Source: Candidatus Eisenbacteria bacterium
GTDB taxonomy: Bacteria > Eisenbacteria > RBG-16-71-46 > SZUA-252
DNA: 48,723 nt
Reading direction: 5' to 3'
Assembly: GCA_035712245.1 (NCBI GenBank)
Contig: DASTBC010000136.1
Span: forward strand, 1-48,723
Shown here: piece by piece, positions 12,962 to 48,723 of the stretch
Layout: every line of letters begins with the position of its first letter
Position numbering within the stretch: the first letter of the stretch is position 1
Position numbers and translations under genes: made by a program
Notes under the pieces: generated by a model
Database searches by the model: none
Seen by the model: only the letters and a program-made list of their open reading frames with translations
What the model was told of the DNA's origin: nothing

Positions 12962-14914
12962 TCACCTCAGAAGCATCAAGCGCTGCGTCCTCGTGACCTC
13001 GGCGGCCGTGAACCGGAAGAAGTAGATCCCGGAGCTGACCGGCCTTCCCGTGGAATCCTTCCCGTCCCAGTGCGCGCGATGCACGCCCGCGGGCATCGCG
13101 GAGTCCACCAGCGTGCGCACGAGCCTTCCCGACGCGCTGTAGACGCGCAGGGTGGCATGTGTGGCCGCCGGGAGCGCGTAGGCGATCTCGGTCTCGTCCC
13201 GGAACGGATTCGGACGCGCCGCCGTCACCGACGGTGTCACCGGGGTTGCGAGATCGGGAACCGGCGCGCTCCCCGAGGAGATCATCGTGGGCATTGTGAC
13301 CGCGTGGCGGTTCGCGCTCTGGGCCCCGACAAGGTTCAGCGCGCCGCCGTCGCCCACGGGGAACAACGGGACCAGGTCGACGAGGATGGTCGCGGTGACG
13401 AGCCCGGCGTCCGATCGCATCGCGTCGCCGGCCTCCCCTCCCGTCGACGAACCTCCGCCCATCTGAAGCAGCATCGCACGGGCGGAGGATCCGTCCGGCG
13501 CGACACTCGACTCCAGCTGGAGCCCGCTCCCCGGCAGCAGCCTCAGGCCGGCGATCCGAGCACCGGACGACGCCGCGTCGATGGCAAAGTCGATCCCGGC
13601 GAAACCGGATCCTGGTTCGACCTCGACTTCCGCCCGGCCCGTGAGCGGCGTGATCCATTGGACCGGTCCCGTGAATCCGATTCGCGTCGGGTCGCCCGTC
13701 CCTTCGCCCGGATCCGTAGTTCCGAATCCTCCGGAGCCCAGGATCTTCCGGATGCAGCAGATCACGTCACGTATGTCGACGCCGCCGTCGCCGTTGCAGT
13801 CCGCGCGCGCGGCCACCTCGTCGGGACACGCCTCCGAGCCGCCTCCGGCGAGCGCGCAGTTCACGAGCTGGACGATGTCGAGGATGTTCGAAGTACCATC
13901 CTCGTTGAGGTCACATCCGGGGGTGCCGATGCAGATCCGCCCATAATCGACCGTGAGCTCGGGGGGCCTGATGGTCGGGCAGTGGAAGATGGTATTGCCG
14001 AGCGGATCGGCGACGATGGTCTCTTCGAGCATCACGAGCTGGACCTGTTCCACCGCATGGGAGCTCACCTGGTAGATCACGCGGAAGATCGAGCCCTGAC
14101 CCGGTGCGATCTCCGCTCCGGACGTTGTCGGGTAGAGGATGACTCTGACCCTCGAGCCCTCGGCGGTCCAGGCGACCTGGAAACCGGACGTTCGATCCGT
14201 GGTCACGACGTCGACCGGCACGACGACGAGGTGCGAGTCGGCGCGCACGCTGCCGGCGAGCGGATCCCGATGAAAGACCGAAACCACGTCGGTCTGCATG
14301 CCGCCGACCGGAACGGGATTCATGAGCGTGATCGGGAGCGAGGCTCTCCCGCCGGGAGGCGCCGAGGCGTGGCACCAGCGATCGCCCACCGGTGTCCCGA
14401 ATCCCAGGAGGATGCACGCGTCCGTCGGGCACGCGTCGGAGAACGTGACGTTGAACGAGGAGGAGAGGGTGTCCTGCGGGGTTTCCGATCCATCCTGGAC
14501 CAGGTACTCGACGGCACGTACCCAGTACGTGCCGAAGCGAAGTGGTCGTGGGAGCGTGAACGCTTTCTGGTACGGCTGGATCACCGCGGGGCAGGCGCCT
14601 CCCGGAGGCGTCACGTGGCGCAGGACGATCCGCACCCGGATCTCGTACGTCGGGATCGGACCCATGGTCGGAAGCTCGACCGGGCCGTTCAGTTCCGTGA
14701 AGACGATCTCGTAGCACGGGGTCGGCGTCGCTCCCGAGACAACCACGGCCACCGAGTCGCAGATGGTCGGATTCGGCGGCTCCGTCGCGATGGAGGTCAG
14801 GTCCGCCGCGGCGGGTGATGTCGCGAACAGAAGAGCGAACAGCGCGGTGAGACCCGCTACCAGGAGCGTTCGTTTCCGGCCGACGTGTGGGGACCAGGTG
14901 GCTCGAGGGGTCAT
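12962..14914 (-). CDS. Exported dockerin-domain protein with C-terminal FlgD-like/T9SS-type module
   Basis: A 650-residue secreted protein. Signal peptide at 1-39 (RKRTLLVAGLTALFALLFA). The middle holds beta-rich domains of no known class. Around 330-390 there is a type I dockerin with two calcium loops (DLNEDGTSNILD and DCNGDGGVDIRD). The last 85 residues (from ARPNPFRDETEIAYALP to RTQRLMLLR) form the FlgD-like Ig/type-A sorting module common on surface proteins of FCB-related lineages. ATG 14914 follows GGAGGAG; the open frame upstream is leader. No cohesin gene is in the window. Likely role: surface-displayed adhesion or polysaccharide/protein binding, by inference. Confidence 0.88.
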   Translation of the reverse strand: MTPRATWSPHVGRKRTLLVAGLTALFALLFATSPAAADLTSIATEPPNPTICDSVAVVVSGATPTPCYEIVFTELNGPVELPTMGPIPTYEIRVRIVLRHVTPPGGACPAVIQPYQKAFTLPRPLRFGTYWVRAVEYLVQDGSETPQDTLSSSFNVTFSDACPTDACILLGFGTPVGDRWCHASAPPGGRASLPITLMNPVPVGGMQTDVVSVFHRDPLAGSVRADSHLVVVPVDVVTTDRTSGFQVAWTAEGSRVRVILYPTTSGAEIAPGQGSIFRVIYQVSSHAVEQVQLVMLEETIVADPLGNTIFHCPTIRPPELTVDYGRICIGTPGCDLNEDGTSNILDIVQLVNCALAGGGSEACPDEVAARADCNGDGGVDIRDVICCIRKILGSGGFGTTDPGEGTGDPTRIGFTGPVQWITPLTGRAEVEVEPGSGFAGIDFAIDAASSGARIAGLRLLPGSGLQLESSVAPDGSSARAMLLQMGGGSSTGGEAGDAMRSDAGLVTATILVDLVPLFPVGDGGALNLVGAQSANRHAVTMPTMISSGSAPVPDLATPVTPSVTAARPNPFRDETEIAYALPAATHATLRVYSASGRLVRTLVDSAMPAGVHRAHWDGKDSTGRPVSSGIYFFRFTAAEVTRTQRLMLLR

Positions 14915-14961
14915 GACGTCTCCTCCCTCGTACAGGGAGCCGGCGGGCTCGGGGAGTCTCC

Positions 14962-14970
14962 ATTGTATCA
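14962..14970 (-). promoter_or_regulatory. Extended -10 promoter of dockerin gene
   Basis: On the minus strand the sequence TGATACAAT is an extended -10 (TGn plus TACAAT), 48 bases before ATG 14914. The -35 position holds only TTCCCC. Confidence 0.45.
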
Positions 14971-15063
14971 CCTCCGCTCCAACCGGGGAACGGATGCGAT
15001 CCTCGAAGAGATGTGCGAAACTGCCTCCTTCCACCCCGTCTGGATCCGGTTAGGAGACCCCTC

Positions 15064-17824: not shown

Positions 17825-19456
17825 CTACGGCTGGGCCACTTCCGCGTCCCCGGCCGGAATGGCCGCGAGCAGCTTCTGGAGCGTGGTCGTCTCGATCGGT
17901 TTCGTGAGGTGGGCGTCGAAGCCCGCCTCGCGCGAGCGGCGGCGGTCCGCGTCCTGGCCCCATCCCGTCACGGCAATGAGCGTGAGCCGTTTGCCATTGG
18001 CGCGCTGCCTCAGCATCGAGGCGACCTCGTAGCCGTCCAGATCGGGAAGGCCGATGTCGAGGAGCACGATCTCGGCGCCCCAGGACTCGGCGCGCTCCAC
18101 CGCGGCGAGCCCCTCGTGGACCGTCAGGACCTCGTGACCGGTGAGGCGCAGGAGGAGCGCCAGGCTCTCGGCCGAATCGAGGTTGTCGTCCACGACCAGG
18201 ATTCGGCGCGATGCCGGAGGCTCCGCGATGCCGGACTCCACCTCGGGTGAAGCGCCCGCCTCGATCCGGTCCGGGGCGTGCGGGAGCCGGATCACGAACT
18301 CGCTTCCCATGCCGGCCCCCTCGCTCCGCGCCTCGACCGTTCCACCGTGCATCTCGACCAGCCTGCGAACGAGCGCGAGGCCGATTCCGAGCCCGCCGAC
18401 GCTCAGCGTCTTCGTGTGCCGCGACTGGTAGAACATCTGGAAGAGCTGCGGTATGTCCTCCGGCTCGAGGCCTTTCCCCTGGTCCTTCACGCGGATCACG
18501 AGGCGCTCGTCCTCCCGCTCCGCCGTGAGCCAGATCGTGTTCCCCTCGGGCGTGAACTTCACGGCGTTGTCGAGCAGGTTCAGGAGGACCTGGGTCATCC
18601 GGACCGCGTCGGCATGGAGCGTGACGGGTCCCGGGGGCATCGACACGTGGAGGCGGACCCCCTTGCGCGTGACCTGGGGCTGGACCGCTTCCAGCGCTCC
18701 GCGCACGATCTCGGAGAGGTCGACGCGCTTCCTGCGGATCTCGAGCTTTCCGCGCGTGATCCGGCTCACGTCCAGGAGATCGTCCACCAGTCTCGTGAGA
18801 TGGTCCACCTGGCGGTCGATGACGTCGTAGCTCCAGTCGAGCTCCGGATCGCGCTCCTTCAAGCGCATGTACTCGACCGAGTTCCGGATGGGCGCCAGCG
18901 GGTTCCGCAGCTCGTGCGCGAGCATCGCGAGGAACTCGTCCTTCCGGCGGTCGGTCTCGCGCAGCAGGTCCTCGGATTCGCGGAGCCGCGCGGCGGCGGA
19001 CTCCAGCGCGGCGGTGCGCTCCCTCACGCGGCGCTCCAGCTCCGCGTTCAGGTGCTCGAGCTGCTGCGTCTTCCGGTAGAGGTCCGCGAACACGCTCACG
19101 CGCGCGCGCAGGAGATCCGGCTCGATCGGAACCGACACGTAGTCGACGCCGCCCACCTCGTACCCGCGCAGGCGGTCCATGTCGGTCACGTGGATCGCGG
19201 AAACGAAGATGATCGCCGTCCGGCGGTGGCGCGGATGCTCGTGGATCATGGCCGCCAGCTCGAACCCGTCCAGGTCCGGCATGGACACGTCCATCAGGAC
19301 GACGGCGATCTCCGTCTTGAGGAGCCGTTCCAGGGCCTCGTTCCCCGAGCTCGCCTGGATCAGGTTCTCCCCCAGCGGCGCGAGGATCGCCTCGTAGGTC
19401 AGGAGCTTGGCGTGCTGGTCGTCGACCAGCAGGATGTTGACGGGATCGGGTCTCAC
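17825..19456 (-). CDS. Soluble hybrid histidine kinase, REC-HisKA-HATPase-REC
   Basis: A 543-residue cytosolic kinase. Domains: receiver about 5-120 with phospho-acceptor D56 (VVLMDVSMPD); coiled coil about 128-170; HisKA with H181 in LAHELRNPLAP; HATPase about 285-400 (NLLDNAVKFTPEG, GGLGIGLALVRR); C-terminal receiver about 425-540 (EIVLLDIGLPDLDGY). In the first receiver the usual Lys before Pro is replaced (DYVSVPIEP). No membrane span or DNA-binding domain. GTG 19456 follows AGGGGGA and lies 8 bases after the stop of the larger kinase gene, so the two are one operon and may form a phosphorelay. Confidence 0.93.
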   Translation of the reverse strand: MRPDPVNILLVDDQHAKLLTYEAILAPLGENLIQASSGNEALERLLKTEIAVVLMDVSMPDLDGFELAAMIHEHPRHRRTAIIFVSAIHVTDMDRLRGYEVGGVDYVSVPIEPDLLRARVSVFADLYRKTQQLEHLNAELERRVRERTAALESAAARLRESEDLLRETDRRKDEFLAMLAHELRNPLAPIRNSVEYMRLKERDPELDWSYDVIDRQVDHLTRLVDDLLDVSRITRGKLEIRRKRVDLSEIVRGALEAVQPQVTRKGVRLHVSMPPGPVTLHADAVRMTQVLLNLLDNAVKFTPEGNTIWLTAEREDERLVIRVKDQGKGLEPEDIPQLFQMFYQSRHTKTLSVGGLGIGLALVRRLVEMHGGTVEARSEGAGMGSEFVIRLPHAPDRIEAGASPEVESGIAEPPASRRILVVDDNLDSAESLALLLRLTGHEVLTVHEGLAAVERAESWGAEIVLLDIGLPDLDGYEVASMLRQRANGKRLTLIAVTGWGQDADRRRSREAGFDAHLTKPIETTTLQKLLAAIPAGDAEVAQP

Positions 19457-19464
19457 GCGTCCCC

Positions 19465-22400
19465 CTACCGGTGCAGCCAGGACCGGAGCACGGAGAGTAG
19501 CTGCTCCGTGTTCACCGGCTTCGCGAGATAGTCCGACGCTCCCGCCTCGAGGCATTTCTCGCGGTCTCCCTTCATCGCGCGCGCGGTGAGCGCGACGATG
19601 GGGAGCCGCCGGAACTCGGATTTCCCGCGGATCGCGTTCATGGTCTGGTACCCGTCCATCTCGGGCATCATGACGTCCATGAGCACGATGGCGATGCCGG
19701 GTGTGGACTCGAGGATCTCGAGCGCCTCGCGCCCGGTGCTCGCGGTGAGCACCGTCATGCCTCGCCGCTCGAGCGCGCTCGACAGGGCGAAGATGTTCCG
19801 GACGTCGTCGTCCACCACCAGCACGGACCGTCCCACGAGATCGTCGTCCGTGCGGTAGAGCCGGTCGAGCATTCGCTGCTTCTCCTGGGGCATGTCCGAG
19901 ATCACGCGGTGAAGGAAGAGCGACGTCTCGTCGAGGAGCCGCTCGGGGGACTCGACCCCCTTCACGACGACGCTCCGCGCCAGCGTGTGGAGCTGCGCGT
20001 CCTCCTCGGCCGTCAGCTCCTTGCCGGTGAAGACGATCACCGGGAGGCCGGCCAGCGCGTGGTCGTCCCGGAGCTGTTCCAGCATCTCGAGCCCCGACAT
20101 GTCGGGGAGCCGGAGGTCGACCACGGCACAGTCGAACCGCTCGCTCCGAAGCGCCCGGAGTGCTTCCGCCGCGGTCGTCGCCGACTCGATCTCCACGTCG
20201 TCGTGCCCGAGGAGCGCCGCGATCGAGATCTGCTCGAGCGGATCGTCCTCCACGACGAGGAGCCGCTTCCGCCGCGGCGCCGAGTACTCCTTGATCCGCG
20301 CGAGCGCCGCCTCGAGGCCCTCGGGCGAGGTGGGCTTCGTGAGGAACGCGAACGCTCCGCGCGCGAGCCCATGCTGGCGATCCTCGTCCAGGGTGACGAT
20401 CTGGACGGGGATGTGCCGGGTGGCGGGGTCCTGCTTCAGATGGCTCAGCACCGTCCACCCGAGCATGTCCGGCAGGAACACGTCCAGCGATATGGCGCTC
20501 GGGTGGTACTGCCGCGCGAGCTCCAGCGCGTCGAGGCCGCGCTGGGCGACGAGCACCTTGAACCCGATGTCGTGCGCGAGGTCCACGATCACGCGGGCAT
20601 AGTGCGGATCGTCCTCGACGATGAGGAGCGTGGTATCGCCAGGAGCGATGCCGCCGCGATCGTCCGGCACCTTCTCCACGGCCCGCTCCGGCAGGCGGAC
20701 CGACGAATAGCGGGTGAGGTGGCGGGCTCCGTCGCCGTCCTCTTCCTCCGGAGTGACCGACGGACCGGCGTAGGCCACCGGCAGGTAGAGCGTGAACGTG
20801 CTCCCTCGTCCGGGCGTGCTTCGGAGCTGGATCTCCCCGCCTAGGAGGTGGGCCAGCTCGCGGCTGATCGCGAGCCCCAGCCCCGTGCCGCCGTACTTCC
20901 GGCTCGTGCTCGCGTCGGCCTGCTGGAACGCCTCGAAGATGATCTTCTGCTTCTCGGGCGGGATGCCCACGCCGGTGTCCGAGACCTCGAACGAGACCAC
21001 GGCCGGCGCGTTGCGCAGGGTCAGGTTCTCCATGCTCCAGCCTCCCGCCGCCACCGCGACGTTCAGCCGAACGCCGCCGTGCTCCGTGAACTTGAACGCG
21101 TTCGAGAGGAGGTTCTTGAGCACCTGCTGGAGGCGCTTCGGATCGGTGACCATCGTCCCGCCGAGCTGCGGATCGACCTGCACGTCGAAGGTGAGCTTGC
21201 GATTCTCGGCCTCGTGCCGGAAGGTGCGCCGCACCGTCTCGAGCAGGGTGGTGAAGTAGATCTCCTCCGCGTCCACCGTGACCGTCCCGGACTCGATCTT
21301 GGAGAGGTCGAGGATGTCCGTGATCAGGTTGAGGAGATCCGTCCCGGCGCCGTGAATGCTGCGCGCGAACTCGACCTGCTTCGGCGAGAGATTCCCGTCC
21401 GGGTTGTCCCCGAGCTGCTGGCCCAGGATGAGGATGCTGTTGAGCGGCGTTCGGAGCTCGTGCGACATGTTCGCGAGGAACTCGGACTTGTACTTGGACG
21501 TGAGCGCGAGCTCGCTCGCCTTCTCCTCGAGGGCGCGGCGCGCCTGCTCGATCTCCTGGTTCTTGCGCTCCACCTCGACGTTCTGCTCCGCGAGCTGCTG
21601 CGCTTTGAGCGCGAGCTGCTCGTTCGTCTGCTGGAGCTCCTTCTGGCGGAACTGGAGCTCGCTCGCGAGCTGCTGGGACTGCTTCAGGAGCCCCTCGGTC
21701 TGCATCGTGGCCTCGATCGAGTTGAACACGATGCCCACGCTGGCGGTGAGCTGGTCCAGGAAGCCGAGGTGCGCGGGGGCGAAGTCCTGGAGCGAGGCCA
21801 GGCCGAGCACGGCCCGGATCTCGCCCTCGAAGATGATGGGGAACACGACGACGCTGCGCGGGAGCGCCTGGAAGAGCGCGGTGCCGATCGGGACCGTGTC
21901 GCCGGGGATGTTCGTGACCAGGATGCGGCGCCGGTCGAGCGCGCACTGGCCGACGAATCCTTCGCCCAGCGCGACTTCCTCGGGGTAGCCGTTCTCGGCG
22001 AGGTTCCCGTAGCTCGCGAGCATCCGGAGCCGAGGCGTCTCCTCGGTGTCCATCTGGTAGATCACGCCCTGGTGCGCGTCGACGAGGGGGACGAGCTCGG
22101 AGAGGAGCATCCGGCCCACGGTGCCGAGGTCCCGCTGCCCCTGGAGCATTCCGGTGAACCGCGCCAGGTTCGTCTTGAGCCAGTCCTGCTCGCGATTCTG
22201 TCCGGTGGTGAGCTTCAGGTTGCGGATCATCGTGTTGATCGAGTCCTTGAGCTCCGCGACCTCGCCGCGCGCGTCGACCTGGATCGACCGGGTGAGGTCT
22301 CCCTGGGTCACGGCCGTGGCCACGTCGGCGATGGCGCGCACCTGCGTCGTGAGATTCGCCGCGAGCAGGTTCACGTTCCCCGTGAGGTCCTTCCACGTGC

Positions 22401-25182
22401 CGGCCGCGCCGGGCACGTTCGCCTGGCCGCCGAGACGCCCTTCCACGCCCACCTCGCGCGCCACGGTGGTCACCTGGTCCGCGAAGGTCGCGAGCGTCAC
22501 GGTCATGTTGTTGATGGTCTCGGCGAGCGCCGCGACCTCGCCCTTCGCCTGCACGGTGAGGTTCTGCTTCATGTCGCCGTTCGCGACGGCGGTCACGACC
22601 TTCACGATGCCTCGCACCTGCTCCGTGAGGTTCGCGGCCATGACGTTGACCGTGTCGGTGAGATCCTTCCAGGTGCCCGCGACGCCCGGCACGACGGCCT
22701 GGCCTCCGAGCTTGCCGTCGGTGCCGACCTCGCGCGCGACGCGCGTCACCTCGGCGGCGAACGCGTTCAGCTGGTCCACCATCGTGTTGATCGTGTTCTT
22801 GAGCTCGAGGATCTCGCCCTTCACGTCGACCGTGATCTTCCGGGAGAGGTCTCCCCGGGCCACGGCCGTCGTCACCTCGGCGATGTTCCGGACCTGGGTG
22901 GTGAGGTTCGCGGCGAGGAGGTTCACGTTGTCCGTGAGGTCCTTCCACGTGCCGCCCACGCCCGCCACCACCGCCTGTCCGCCGAGCCGCCCGTCTGTCC
23001 CGACCTCGCGCGCCACGCGCGTCACCTCGGCCGCGAAGGAACGCAGCTGCTCCACCATCGTGTTCAGCGTCTCCTTGAGGAGGAGGATCTCGCCGCGCAC
23101 GTCGACGGTGATCTTCTTCGAGAGGTCGCCGTTCGCGATGGCGGTCGCGACCTCGGCGATGTTCCGGACCTGGGCGGTCAGGTTGTCGGCCATCGAGTTG
23201 ACGGAGTCGGTGAGGTCCTTCCACGTTCCCGCGACGCCCGGCACGACCGCCTGGCCCCCGAGCTTCCCGTCGGTCCCGACCTCGCGCGCGACGCGCGTCA
23301 CCTCGCCCGCGAACGCGTTCAGCTGGTCGACCATCGTGTTGATCGTGTTCTTGAGCTCGAGGATCTCGCCCTTCACGTCCACGGTGATCTTCCGGGAGAG
23401 ATCCCCTCGCGCCACCGCCGTGGTCACCTCGGCGATGTTCCGCACCTGCGCCGTGAGGTTCGACGCCATGGAGTTCACGTTGTCGGTGAGGCCCTTCCAC
23501 GTGCCCGCGACCCCCGGCACCTGCGCCTGGCCGCCGAGCTTGCCCTCGGTGCCGACCTCGCGCGCCACGCGCGTCACCTCGCCCGCGAACGCGTTCAGCT
23601 GGTCGACCATCGTGTTGATGGTCTCCTTGAGCTGCAGGATCTCGCCCGAGACGTCGACCGTGATCTTCTTCGAGAGGTCGCCGGTCGCGATCGCGGTCGC
23701 CACCTCGGCGATGTTCCGGACCTGGGTGGTCAGGTTGTTCGCCATCGAGTTCACGCTGTCCGTGAGGTCCTTCCACGTTCCGGCGACGCCGGTCACGGTG
23801 GCCTGGCCGCCCAGACGCCCCTCCGTTCCGACCTCGCGCGCCACGCGGGTCACCTCGCCCGCGAACGAGCGGAGCTGGTCGACCATCGTGTTGATGGTCT
23901 CCTTGAGCTGGAGGATCTCGCCCGAGACGTTCACGGTGATCTTCTTCGAGAGGTCGCCGTTCGCGATGGCGGTCGATACCTCGGCGATGTTCCGCACCTG
24001 CGCCGTGAGGTTCGACGCCATGAAATTCACGTTGTCGGTGAGGTCCTTCCACGTGCCGGCCACGTCGGGCACCTGCGCCTGGCCGCCGAGCCGTCCCTCG
24101 GTTCCGACCTCGCGCGCCACGCGGGTCACCTCGGACGCGAAGGAGTTGAGCTGGTCCACCATCGTGTTGATCGTGTTCTTGAGCTCGAGGATCTCGCCGC
24201 GCACGTCGACCGTGATCTTCCTCGAGAGGTCGCCTCGGGCGACGGCCGTCGTGACGTCCGCGATGTTCCGGACCTGGGCCGTCAGGTTGTTGGCCATGAA
24301 GTTCACCGAGTCGGTGAGATCCTTCCACGTGCCGGCCACGCCGGGGACGATGGCCTGGCCGCCGAGCTTTCCTTCGGTTCCGACCTCGCGTGCGACGCGC
24401 GTCACCTCGGAGGCGAAGGAGCGGAGCTGGTCGACCATCGTGTTGATGGCCTCCTTGAGCTGGAGGATCTCGCCCCGCACGTCGACCGTGATCTTCTTCG
24501 AGAGGTCGCCGCTCGCCACCGCGATGGTCACGTCCGCGATGTTCCGGACCTGGGCGGTGAGGTTGTTGGCCATGGAATTCACGCTGTCCGTGAGGTCCTT
24601 CCACGTGCCGGCGACCCCGGGGACGCGCGCCTGCCCGCCCAGCTTCCCGTCGGAGCCCACCTCGCGCACGACGCGGGTGACCTCGGAGGAGAAGACGGCG
24701 AGCTGCTGGATCATCTTGTTCACGATCGTGGCCGAGCGGAGGAACTCGCCCTTCAGGGGACGTCCGTCCACGTCGAGGCGGACGCTCTGGACGAGGTCCC
24801 CCCGGGCCACGGCGGAGATCGCGTTCGTGACCTCGCGGGTCGGCCAGAGGAGGTCGTCGATCAGGGAGTTGATCGATCCCTGCATCTCGCCCCAGGAGCC
24901 GTCGCTCCGGAGGAGCGTCACCCGCTGGCGGGTGCGGCCGTCGCGGCCCAGGACCTGTCCCACGCGCTCCAGCTCGAGGGCCATGCGGCGGTTGCTGGCG
25001 ACGATGTCGTTGAAGGTGTCGGCGAGCTTCCCGGCGAGACCCGTATGCCCGCTCGGAATCCGGACGGAGAAGTCCCCGTCGCGGACGGCCTCGAGGCCGG
25101 CCAGGAGCTCACGAAGGTCGAGAGTGGATTCCTCCTCGCGGAGGGCAGGAACGGCGGCGGTCGCGCTCGGCGGTGGGTTCAT
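19465..25182 (-). CDS. Giant poly-HAMP hybrid histidine kinase (Nik1/Os-1-like repeats)
   Basis: A 1905-residue soluble kinase. Order: short N-terminal helical region with HAMP-like segment (to about 170), HAMP array to about 1005 containing nine copies of a 92-residue unit marked by GTWK (Trp at about 195, then every 92), GAF about 1014-1150, coiled coil about 1155-1230, HisKA with [12 protein letters not shown] near 1240, HATPase about 1355-1471 ([10 protein letters not shown]), and three receivers at about 1518, 1641 and 1786 with phospho-Asp in [17 protein letters not shown] and VLMDVMMPE. There is no membrane span. The repeats match in length and sequence style those of fungal group III osmosensing kinases. 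ATG 25182 is chosen as the first start before the conserved region; no clear Shine-Dalgarno site. Confidence 0.93.
22230..24830. repeat. Nine-copy 276-bp tandem repeat coding the HAMP array
   Basis: Within the giant kinase gene the marker CCACGT (coding the Trp of GTWK) recurs at 24601, 24325, 24049, 23773, 23497, 23221, 22945, 22669 and 22393, exactly 276 bases apart every time. The inner copies are highly similar at DNA level; the last (22393) and first are more diverged. This is a long in-frame tandem repeat prone to unequal recombination and to assembly collapse. Confidence 0.95.
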
Positions 25183-25367: not shown

Positions 25368-25444
<77 letters not shown>

Positions 25445-25597
25445 ACGTGATACTGTGCGATCGGGCGCGCCCTGTAAAGGTCTTTCTGACGCCCTCTTGG
25501 AGGCGTTCCCGTAACCGGAGATTCCGTTGAAGTTTCGGCCGGATCCCGGCATCTCAACCCTAGAGGATCGAACGACGCCCCCCGGATCGGAGTCACG

Positions 25598-27886
25598 GTG
25601 AACGAGCGACGAATCTCGCGGTACCGCCTGCTCGAGCGTCTCGGCGAGGGCGGGATGGGGACCGTGTACCGCGCCAGGGACGAGCGCCTGGAACGCGACG
25701 TGGCGGTCAAGGTCCTGCGTTCCGCCGTCCGCGAGGACGAGGAAGCCCGCAAGCGGTTCCGCCGCGAGGCGAGCGCGCTCTCGCGCCTCAGCCACCCGTC
25801 GATCAACACCGTGCTCGACTTCGACTCGGAGAACGGGACCGACTTCCTGGTGCTGGAGCTGGTCGACGGAAAGCGCCTCGACCAGGTCCTGCGCGAGGGA
25901 CCGCTCCCCGCGGACGAGCTGCTCCGGATCGGAATCGAGATGGCCGACGCGCTCGCCGCCGCCCACGAGGAAGGCGTGGTCCATCGCGACCTGAAGCCCG
26001 CGAACGTCATGATCACGTCGCGCGGAGGCCTGAAGCTCCTCGACTTCGGGCTCGCCCTCCTCGCCCCGTGCCACACGGTCCCCGCCGAGACCCACTCCAT
26101 CACCGAGGCGGGAGTCGTCGTGGGGACGATCGCCTACATGGCGCCCGAGCAGCTCATGGCCGGGAGCGTGGACCAGCGGGCCGACCACTACGCGCTGGGC
26201 GCGATCCTCTTCGAGATGGCGGCGGGTCGCCTCCCGTTCACGGCGACCGCGGCCACCGCGCTCATGAACGAGGTCCTCCACCGTCCCGCGCCGCGGGTCG
26301 AGACCTTCGGCAGGCCGGTTCCTCCGGGGTTCTCCGCTCTCGTGGCCGAGCTCCTCGAGAAGGACCCCGCCCGCCGGCCCGCCAAGGCGGGGACCATCGT
26401 CGAGCGGCTCCGTGCGATCCGCGCGCAGGCCCCGGGAGAGCCGCCGCGCAAAGCGGACGTCGGCGGTGCCGCCGCTCCGGGCCTCGCCGCGCCCGGCCGC
26501 ATCCGCTCCCTCGTCGTGCTCCCGCTCGTCCATCTCTCCGGCGATCCCGAGCAGGAGTACTTCGCCGACGGCATGACCGAGGCGCTGATCACGGACCTCG
26601 CCCAGATCGCCGACCTCCGGGTGGTCTCCCGCACGTCGGCGATGCGGTACAAGGGCACGAGCAAGCCGCTCCCCGAGATCGCCCGGGAGCTCCAGGTGGA
26701 CGCCGTCGTGGAAGGAACGGTCGCCCGATTTGGGGACCGCGTTCGTATCACGGCGCAGCTCATCGACGCGACGACCGACCGCCATCTCTGGGCGCGCGCC
26801 TACGAGCGCGATCTCCGGGACGTGCTCGGGCTGCAGGGAGAAGTCGCGGCCGCGATCGCGGGGGAGATCCGGGTTCGCATCGAGCCCCAGGTCCAGAAGA
26901 AGCTCTCGCGCGAGCGTCGGGTGGACCCGCGGGCCTATGAGTCCTATCTCCGCGGCCGCTATCACTGGAACCGGCGGAGCGCGGACGGCATCCGGCGCGG
27001 GATCGAGCACTTCCAGGAAGCGATCGACCGCGATCCCGCGTACGCCCCCGCCTATGCGGGACTGGCCCAGGCCTACGACACGCTGGGCTCCTACAGCTTC
27101 CTCCCGCCCGGTGAGGCGTTCTCGCTCGCGCGCGCCGCCGTGACCCGCGCCCTCGAGCTGGACGAGTCCCTCCCGGAGGCGCACGTCGCGTGGGGAGGCG
27201 TTCTCCAGAGCCACCTCTGGGACTGGCCCGGCGCCGAGGCGGAGTTCCGCCGCGCGCTCGACCTCGATCCGAATCTCGCCGGGGCCCACCACTGGTACTC
27301 CGACTTCCTCATGGCGATGGGACGATCGGAGGACGCGATCGCGAGCGCGCGCCGCGCGGCCGAGCTGGATCCGCTCCATCTCGCGATCAACATGACCCTC
27401 GGCGCGGCGTACTTCTACGGACGGCGCTACGAGGAAGCCGTGGAGCAGCAGCGCAGGACGCTCGATCTCGATCCCTCGTTCGCCCCGGCGCACCGGAGCA
27501 TGGGCGGAGCGTTCGAGCAGCTCGGGCGCTACGACGAGGCGATTGCCGAATTTCGGAAGGGCGCCGCGCTCTCGGACGATCTCTACGCGACCTCACTCCT
27601 CGCGCACGCGTACGCGGTGTCGGGAAGGAAGGAGGAAGCATGGGTCCTTCTGGAGGAGCTGGAGGAAGCGGAGGCGAGAGATCGCTTCGTGTCGCCGTAC
27701 TCCCTGGCCGCCGTGTATGCCGGACTGGGGAACGCGAACCGCGCCTTCGAGCTCCTGAACCGCGCGTTCCACTCGCGGGACCGGGGGATGGTGTTCCTCT
27801 ACGTGGCCCCGAGGTTCGATCCGCTCCGTGCCGATCCCCGCTTCACCGATCTCCTCCGGCGCATGAAGTTTCCCGGCTGGACGTGA
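25598..27886 (+). CDS. Ser/Thr protein kinase with FlgO/TolB-N-like and TPR domains
   Basis: A 762-residue protein. Hanks-type kinase at about 9-280: glycine loop [12 protein letters not shown] Lys K38, E56, catalytic HRDLKPAN (D130), DFG 148-150, and TIAYMAPEQ. Then a domain at about 305-430 ([20 protein letters not shown], then [13 protein letters not shown]) typical of adenylate-cyclase/TPR proteins, then at least six TPRs up to about 720. There is no membrane span between kinase and TPR parts, so it is probably cytosolic. GTG 25598 follows GGAG. All catalytic residues are intact. Its 3' end overlaps the convergent methyltransferase gene by 44 bases. Confidence 0.94.
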
Positions 27887-47028: not shown

Positions 47029-47037
47029 TGCTAGACT
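47029..47037 (+). promoter_or_regulatory. Extended -10 promoter (TGCTAGACT)
   Basis: TGC plus TAGACT, with only six bases to GTG 47044, would give a leaderless transcript of the M6 gene. It matches the layout before the oxidoreductase at 11672. No clear -35. Confidence 0.4.
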
Positions 47038-47043
47038 CTACCG

Positions 47044-48723
47044 GTGCGACGTCTCGAGCACCGGCCCGCACCGCTCAGTCCGGTCCTCCTCCTCACGCTC
47101 ATCGCCGCCGCCGTCTGCGCGGCCTCTCCCCCGGTTCCCGGCAAGAAGGGACCCCAGGCGCCCCATGTCGTCCGGTCCAGCCGGTTGGAGCCCGAGGCGC
47201 CGCCGCCGTTCCGGCGCGCCGCGCGAGCGCCGTCGCTCGGCGCCGCGACCTTCCAGGTCCTCGCGATTCGGGTCGCCTTCAGTGACACGCCGATCGAGTC
47301 CTCGACCACGTACTACGAGCGCCAGCTCCTCTTCATGGGCCAGTACTGGAACCAGGTCTCCGACGGGCAGGTGGTGCTCCAGTCCACGCTCCACGACTCG
47401 GTCTTCACCCTGCCCCGGCCCATGGCCTACTACGGAGACGACGCCCTCTTCCAGGAGCGGGTCGTTCACCTCGTTCGCGACGCCGTCCAGGCGGCCGATC
47501 CGACGGTGGACTTCAGGCCGGTGCAGAGCCTGATCCTCTTCCACGCGGGCGCCGGGCAGGAAGCGGACATCTTCGACGACAGCCGCGGGCAGATCTGGTC
47601 CGCGTTCGTGACCCCCGACGACTTCGAAGCCATTCTCCCCGACACGAGCGGGCTCGGCCGCATCGGCATCGCGACCAACGACACGATCTCCCCGGGCGTC
47701 GTGCGCATGATCGCGGAGGCGGTCGAGGTGCCCGAGCGCGAGAGCCAGGACACGTTCTCGTTCGGGCTCCAGGGAGTGCTCGTGCACGAGTTCGGCCACC
47801 AGCTCGGCCGGCTCCAGGGCCAGATCTCGATGCCCGACCTCTACGACACGGACGGCGACGAGGGCGGATCCTCGCAAGGAGTCGGGGCCTGGTGCATCAT
47901 GGGAGGCGGCGTGTGGAACGCGAACGGCTTCGTTCCTTCGGGACCGAGCGCATGGACGAAGCTCTGGCTCGGGTTCCTCGCGCCTCAGCGCATCGTCGCG
48001 GACGGACCCTACAGCGTGTCCCGTCTCTCGGGCGCGGTCTCGGCCGCCCCGCGCGCGCTCCAGATCCCGATCACGCAGTCCGAGTACTTCCTGATCGAGA
48101 ACCGGGATCACGATCCCGACCGGAACGGAACGTTCTCCTTCGACGACGTGGACGGCGACGGCTGCTTCGACTACTACCAGGACTCCTTCGCCGGCGCCGA
48201 GTACGACTTCTTCCTTCCCGCGCATCTCACGCCTCCCGATCCCGACTCGTGCGACGCGGGAACGTATGTCGAGGGCTCGGGGATCCTCATCTATCACATC
48301 GACGACTCCAAGATCGAGGCGGGGATCCGCAGCAACACGGTGAACGCGGACGCGACCCGCAAGGGAGTCGATGTCGAGGAAGCGGACGGCGTCCAGGACC
48401 TCGACCAGCCGCCGAGCGCCTCCAACGCGGGGAGCCCGGACGATGTCTTCCGGGCGGGATGGCGGGACCGGTTCACGCCGGACACGAGCCCCTCGACCGC
48501 CGCGTACCCCGACGAGCGGACCGGGATCTCGGTGACCGGGATCAGCGCCGCCGACAGCGTGATGACCCTCACGATCGTCTTCGATCGAAACCTGGCGGGA
48601 TGGCCGAAGACGCTCACGGGGCGCATCCGGAGCCTCCCGAGCGTGGCCGCGGACCTGGACGGCGACGGCACGCTCGAGGTCGTGGTTCCGCTGCAGCGGC
48701 TCAACAACACGGGCGCGATCTAC
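47044..48723 (+). CDS. M6 family (immune-inhibitor-A-like) secreted metalloprotease, 5' part
   Basis: At least 560 residues; the frame is open to the window end. Signal peptide near the start (LSPVLLLTLIAAAVCAASPP). Peptidase M6 domain with zinc motif H248-E-F-G-H252 (VLVHEFGHQLGRLQG), followed by YDTDG and the met-turn-like GAWCIMGGG. Later there is GSGILIYHIDDSKI, typical of M6 peptidases, and the final residues (SLPSVAADLDGDGTLEVVVP) begin an FG-GAP/VCBS-type repeat region. GTG 47044 has no Shine-Dalgarno site, but a -10-like element sits six bases upstream. Such proteins usually end in a surface sorting module, which would lie outside the window. Confidence 0.92.
   Translation, partial: MRRLEHRPAPLSPVLLLTLIAAAVCAASPPVPGKKGPQAPHVVRSSRLEPEAPPPFRRAARAPSLGAATFQVLAIRVAFSDTPIESSTTYYERQLLFMGQYWNQVSDGQVVLQSTLHDSVFTLPRPMAYYGDDALFQERVVHLVRDAVQAADPTVDFRPVQSLILFHAGAGQEADIFDDSRGQIWSAFVTPDDFEAILPDTSGLGRIGIATNDTISPGVVRMIAEAVEVPERESQDTFSFGLQGVLVHEFGHQLGRLQGQISMPDLYDTDGDEGGSSQGVGAWCIMGGGVWNANGFVPSGPSAWTKLWLGFLAPQRIVADGPYSVSRLSGAVSAAPRALQIPITQSEYFLIENRDHDPDRNGTFSFDDVDGDGCFDYYQDSFAGAEYDFFLPAHLTPPDPDSCDAGTYVEGSGILIYHIDDSKIEAGIRSNTVNADATRKGVDVEEADGVQDLDQPPSASNAGSPDDVFRAGWRDRFTPDTSPSTAAYPDERTGISVTGISAADSVMTLTIVFDRNLAGWPKTLTGRIRSLPSVAADLDGDGTLEVVVPLQRLNNTGAIY

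Follow-up and report, generated by a model that had tools for sequence, protein, structure and literature searches.

A soluble poly-HAMP hybrid kinase from Candidatus Eisenbacteria and the receiver-headed kinase gene that accompanies it and many of its relatives

Described poly-HAMP kinases and the locus analysed

Fungal group III hybrid histidine kinases (Nik1/Os-1/Bos1/TcsC) carry one C-terminal receiver and no GAF domain, feed the Ypd1/HOG pathway and are sensitive to phenylpyrroles. They combine tandem 92-residue HAMP pairs with a HisKA-HATPase-REC output and have no membrane span. In CaNik1p, nine HAMPs are arranged in five repeats, four pairs and one single domain, and HAMP deletion activates Hog1p signalling (PMC3848655), which indicates that the HAMP array controls the output in the fungal relatives. 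In bacteria, a 2020 paper characterised AskA and AskB of Myxococcus and Amb07 of Sorangium as poly-HAMP hybrid kinases that resemble group III and whose arrays exceed that of Nik1 in length (PMC7643160). In M. xanthus the gene of a further kinase, AskC (MXAN_6734), lies immediately downstream of that of AskB (MXAN_6735); AskC binds both AskA and AskB, with affinities in the micromolar range, and a two-hybrid test detected an interaction of the AskC receiver with Rec3 of AskA (PMC7643160). A physical complex of the two kinases, and a response to ambruticin or glycerol, are known in M. xanthus only (PMC7643160). Stacked divergent HAMPs also occur in Aer2 (PDB 3LNR), a soluble chemoreceptor with five HAMPs, a heme PAS domain and a chemoreceptor output (PMC3570549).

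The window analysed here is the whole of a 48,723-nucleotide stretch of Candidatus Eisenbacteria DNA (assembly GCA_035712245.1, contig DASTBC010000136.1); the features of interest are listed in Table 1. Its poly-HAMP kinase shares with AskA, AskB and Amb07 a long tandem array of paired HAMPs with a 92-residue period, longer than that of Nik1, the lack of a membrane span, and a HisKA-HATPase module with several receivers whose catalytic residues are all intact; as in the AskB-AskC order, a second receiver-containing kinase is encoded immediately downstream. The locus of Myxococcus eversor (L093) shows the same gene order as the window. The Myxococcus kinases nevertheless belong to another clade, with about 50% identity between the window kinase and the M. 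eversor relative in the C-terminal half, so that they may respond to a different signal. The partners differ as well: REC-HisKA-HATPase-REC in the window against REC-PAS-PAS-HisKA-HATPase in M. eversor, the conserved lysine of the partner receiver being absent from the former and kept in Myxococcus. Closer relatives are found in Bradyrhizobium, Nitrospirillum and Acidobacteria (e.g. L039, L042, L050), which have the same domain order, an adjacent REC-headed partner and a C-terminal half 70–73% identical; their kinases usually have 12 units, against 10 for the window kinase by the same count, and their partners, where examined, end in PAS plus an HWE or HisKA_3 kinase, unlike that of the window. 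Compared with the fungal enzymes, the window kinase has a GAF domain, three receivers, a bacterial partner kinase and a far longer array.

Table 1. Positions of the two kinase genes and of the domains of the poly-HAMP kinase within the window
Feature	Position	Strand	Extent	Supporting data
Poly-HAMP hybrid histidine kinase gene	19465..25182	-	1905 aa	Single open frame, ATG at 25182, stop ending at 19465
N-terminal divergent HAMP-HAMP-HAMP stretch	24694..25122	-	Residues about 21–163, ahead of first GTWK unit	Alignment to PDB 9TRK
Nine 92-residue HAMP-pair units	22198..24681	-	Residues 168–995	GTWK spacing, unit identity matrix, TRF period 276
GAF domain	21724..22134	-	Residues 1017–1153	Pfam GAF_2, 7.6e-15
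HisKA dimerisation and phospho-acceptor domain	21286..21489	-	His1241	Pfam, 1.7e-17; His kept in 82/82
HATPase_c catalytic domain	20776..21147	-		Pfam, 5.1e-30; N, D and G boxes kept in 82/82
Receiver 1	20293..20631	-	Asp1567; boundaries approximate	Pfam Response_reg; Asp in 82/82
Receiver 2	19912..20265	-	Asp1689; boundaries approximate	Pfam; Asp in 78/82, least conserved of the three
Receiver 3	19486..19824	-	Asp1836	Best Pfam Response_reg stretch 1787–1899; Asp, Thr and Lys in 82/82
Partner gene, REC-HisKA-HATPase_c-REC kinase	17825..19441	-	538 aa	Starts at a GTG 23 bp beyond the poly-HAMP stop codon

Architecture and family of the poly-HAMP kinase

The original prediction, made from the letters alone, described a soluble kinase with nine Nik1-type HAMP repeats. 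A GTWK motif does recur at residues 192, 284, 376, 468, 560, 652, 744, 836 and 928, in steps of 92 residues (276 bp) to which the nine copies offer no exception. Tandem Repeats Finder independently detects a period of 276 (8.4 copies, score 2449, 22369–24686), which shows that the spacing does not arise by chance. The unit is indeed of the Nik1 type, since it corresponds to the HAMP pair described for fungal CaNik1p (PMC3848655). Pfam reports nine stretches each of HAMP (PF00672, 6e-94) and HAMP_2 (PF18947), and the region matches solved HAMPs at 2e-118. Nine units of 92 residues thus stand as predicted, but they do not make up the whole array: ahead of them lie a HAMP, a divergent HAMP and a further HAMP, giving about 21 HAMPs for the entire chain, eleven of one type and ten of the other as counted by inspection. 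For this N-terminal part structures of a close relative have been solved (PDB 9TRK and 9TRJ); 9TRK is directly related, 193 of 291 aligned residues being identical (66%) between its residues 37–328 and residues 10–300 of the window kinase. Ordinary membrane-linked chemoreceptors and kinases have a single HAMP after a transmembrane helix, whereas here the HAMPs stand in series and no membrane span is present, the highest 19-residue hydropathy window (1.75) falling within the GAF domain, in agreement with the predicted soluble protein.

Beyond the HAMPs, Pfam finds GAF_2, HisKA, HATPase_c and three Response_reg stretches, in the order that had been proposed. The phospho-accepting His1241 and the ATP-binding boxes are intact, and all three receivers, likewise predicted to be so, retain their aspartate (1567, 1689 and 1836) and lysine. 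The C-terminal half of 900–988 residues, with kinase and three receivers, can be aligned in 82 of 82 relatives; no variation is seen among them at His1241 or in the N, D and G boxes, nor at the Asp and Lys of the first receiver or the Asp, Thr and Lys of the third. Among the NCBIfam models listed, none for a specific named kinase reached its cut-off on the poly-HAMP kinase. A link to defence systems was also considered and rejected, the PADLOC matches being weak only, as expected of any kinase or receiver.

Units 1–7 are 76–90% identical to one another at the protein level, and units 8 and 9, the most divergent of the nine, are 59–67% identical to the others. Between units, third codon positions are 65% identical against 82% and 86% at the other two, and the same codon is used at 71% of the identical residues; this pattern suggests old units that have been maintained by protein-level selection. 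Gene conversion that homogenises all units is unsupported, as window units 5–9 match, in the same order, the five final units of a relative from Bradyrhizobium (89–97%). As a separate observation, the last two units (22198–22749), which differ strongly in sequence from the other seven, are 89–91% identical to the last two of Bradyrhizobium; they may be read as a specialised coupler beside the GAF and kinase domains.

A whole-protein scan of GTDB genome contigs yielded at least 583 bacterial relatives, and the best 80 of these include Alphaproteobacteria, Betaproteobacteria, Acidobacteria, Verrucomicrobia, Cyanobacteria, Myxococcota, Gemmatimonadota, Fibrobacterota, an actinobacterial bin and Paenibacillus, among others. 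Units were counted with one profile, giving 10 for the window gene, over 67 complete genes drawn from these best 80 by similarity and a few loci from other genome searches, a sample that may favour long arrays. The distribution is 6 units (1 gene), 7 (6), 9 (2), 10 (13), 11 (2), 12 (29), 13 (8), 14 (2) and 15 (4), with a median of 12 and a range of 6–15. This comparison of repeat number in related genomes, which the original prediction had called for, places the window gene below the median and is not compatible with its being an extreme version. Nor do three receivers set it apart, since kinase plus three receivers is the norm of the family. The window gene is ordinary for bacterial poly-HAMP kinases, a large family already studied in Myxococcus.

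The receiver-headed partner and its distribution

Of more use than the poly-HAMP gene itself is its conserved partner, which deserves to be followed up. Of the 85 loci with room for it, 61 have as the next gene downstream, on the same strand, one whose product is headed by a receiver of the same type, compared with 5 of 63 at the upstream control position; in 11 further loci such a gene lies within 2.5 kb downstream of the poly-HAMP kinase. As the 85 loci include several of one genus (Bradyrhizobium), they were also counted by genus or unnamed locus: an adjacent partner is present in 42, and 21 groups have at least one locus without it. Adjacent partners span Pseudomonadota, Acidobacteriota, Verrucomicrobiota, Myxococcota, Cyanobacteriota and Gemmatimonadota, and are missing from some relatives (Massilia, Duganella, Rugamonas, Paenibacillus).

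Every partner checked begins with a receiver, and the remainder varies by lineage: HisKA-HATPase-REC in the window, PAS-HWE kinase in Bradyrhizobium, PAS-HisKA_3 in Acidobacteria, PAS-PAS-HisKA in Myxococcus, and GAF-HisKA. The first receiver is thus kept while the rest is swapped. In the window, this receiver has a valine in place of the conserved lysine (DYVSVPIEP), and among 62 partner receivers the position is occupied by valine in 40 and by lysine in 13, those of Myxococcus included. The valine characterises the window's clade and recurs in most of the proteobacterial and acidobacterial relatives.

Where the partner is not adjacent, the intervening genes in the loci checked (Cyanobacteria, Gemmatimonadota and an actinobacterial bin) include those of CheR and/or CheB. 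In three cyanobacterial loci both genes separate the poly-HAMP kinase from the receiver-kinase (L080:10985-14879, L076:14851-18860 and L059:13770-17590); the same slot holds CheB in Gemmatimonadota (L103) and CheR in the actinobacterial bin (L092). Methylation control of the cytosolic poly-HAMP kinase is possible where these genes are inserted.

The GyrB of the window's genome is 87% identical to that of the same-family genome G004 and 59–64% identical to those of Bradyrhizobium, Nitrospirillum and Acidobacteria; over all the named organisms compared, its identity lies at 52–64%. The C-terminal half of the kinase, on the other hand, is 70.5% identical to its G004 counterpart and 71–73% identical to those of Bradyrhizobium, Nitrospirillum and Sulfotelmatobacter, and in the tree the window kinase falls among alphaproteobacterial and acidobacterial genes. 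In clade tests, forcing the window gene together with that of G004 is not rejected (p 0.32), and adding the class-mate G028 to this group is rejected (p 2.7e-10). The mismatch of identities, the tree placement and the rejection of G028 together point to horizontal spread, and judged from these comparisons the Ask-type two-kinase module has probably spread horizontally across phyla; as the data also allow the window gene to group with G004, the transfers may have been one or several and may have run in either direction. Within the family, four of the nine genomes searched gave HAMP-array matches (G000, G002, G004 and G007).

Proposed signalling path and alternative explanations

Based on these data, the locus is likely to be an Ask-type cytosolic signalling module of two genes, the first for a poly-HAMP hybrid kinase and the second for a receiver-headed kinase, and would work as follows. 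The poly-HAMP protein would most likely be a parallel dimer, by analogy with the dimeric HAMP rod of Aer2 (PMC3570549), its 21 or so stacked HAMP four-helix bundles, alternating between two sequence types, forming a long rod. The rod would sense or integrate a cytosolic cue, for which osmotic or small-molecule/chemical stress is the best guess by analogy. A change in helix packing might then be relayed to HisKA by way of the specialised final units and the GAF domain, setting the balance of kinase and phosphatase activity at His1241, from which phosphate would reach the kinase's own receivers. Receiver 3, the most conserved, is the best candidate for docking on the N-terminal receiver of the partner; phosphate may pass on through it to the partner receiver, or the two receivers may simply dock, and the partner's own kinase half would signal onward. 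Because valine replaces lysine in the partner receiver of the window's clade and lysine is kept in Myxococcus, phosphotransfer to the partner may be altered or absent.

Among the alternative explanations, that raised by the original prediction was that the window gene is an extreme nine-unit bacterial form of fungal Nik1 with a bearing on the origin of the fungal family. The two do share the 92-residue HAMP-pair unit and the soluble HAMP-HisKA-HATPase-REC order, and the window chain, like the four pairs plus one single HAMP of CaNik1p (PMC3848655), consists of whole pairs plus one. The claim is nonetheless very improbable, given a unit number under the family median, a receiver number normal in bacteria, hundreds of bacterial relatives and the prior publication of group III-like kinases from bacteria, whose arrays exceed that of Nik1 (PMC7643160); this single gene offers no special leverage on the origin of the fungal family over hundreds of others. 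We consider it equally improbable that the copy number of nine is a product of assembly. The source genome is a draft of 312 contigs, and in two related drafts, the same-genus G002 (C37/C292) and the same-family G007 (C39), the match splits at contig ends inside the HAMP array, which leaves the copy number there unreadable. In the window, however, any two units differ by at least 13% in DNA and share no exact match longer than 50 nt, so that ordinary assembly should resolve the array; moreover, the exact register is kept across units, and units 5–9 correspond in order to the last five of the Bradyrhizobium relative.

That the repeat units mainly form a DNA-binding array, making the protein a DNA-bound regulator as has been suggested for Myxococcus AskB, is unlikely, if a little less so. 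AskB bound the mrpC promoter in vitro, and HTH-like matches inside the HAMPs were reported for AskA, AskB and Amb07 (PMC7643160); weak, overlapping Pfam SpoIIID and HTH_6 matches of the same kind occur in the HAMP units of the window kinase. No stretch of these passes alone and HTH_6 does not reach its cut-off; HAMP models and solved HAMPs fit the residues concerned far better, with the values given above. HTH domains in the units were therefore rejected, the matches being best read as cross-matches to HAMP helices. A similarly small probability is given to the array serving as a chemosensory scaffold in the cytosol whose tuning depends on methylation, CheR and CheB being its adaptation enzymes. 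The inserted cheR and cheB genes described above would fit this explanation, as would the ten stretches of the window kinase that match the NCBIfam model of Aer2, but Pfam finds no chemoreceptor kinase-control module in the poly-HAMP kinase, in the window the 23-bp gap between the two kinases holds neither gene, and the pair is directly adjacent in 61 loci.

Returning to the Ask-type module, a wider formulation, on which our judgement is evenly balanced, would have the poly-HAMP and receiver-headed kinases constitute a conserved, horizontally moving two-gene module found in six phyla or more. The part that stays constant would comprise the HAMP rod, the kinase, the three receivers and the first receiver of the partner, with the output kinase swapped between lineages; in the proteobacterial-acidobacterial clade to which the window gene belongs, the partner receiver, mostly without the lysine, would suggest docking without normal receiver switching, and AskB-AskC would exemplify a general system. 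The conserved partner turns the isolated AskB-AskC observation in Myxococcus into a general prediction of where poly-HAMP kinases send their signal. Fungicides depend on HAMP arrays of this kind for their action in fungi, so that knowledge of the signal and output in bacteria would help to explain what such arrays sense.

Some further features of the genome and the window may be recorded. The whole genome G000 gave no rpoB match (TIGR02013) despite a completeness of 96.7%, the gene having probably been lost in binning or assembly. Just upstream of the poly-HAMP kinase, on the same strand, lies a tRNA-Met (CAT) gene (25368–25444), which separates it from a divergent Ser/Thr kinase-TPR gene (25490–27886, +). 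Elsewhere, the window encodes a probably secreted protein with dockerin-type and FlgD Ig-like domains (12965–15049) and an M6-type peptidase (47035–48723).
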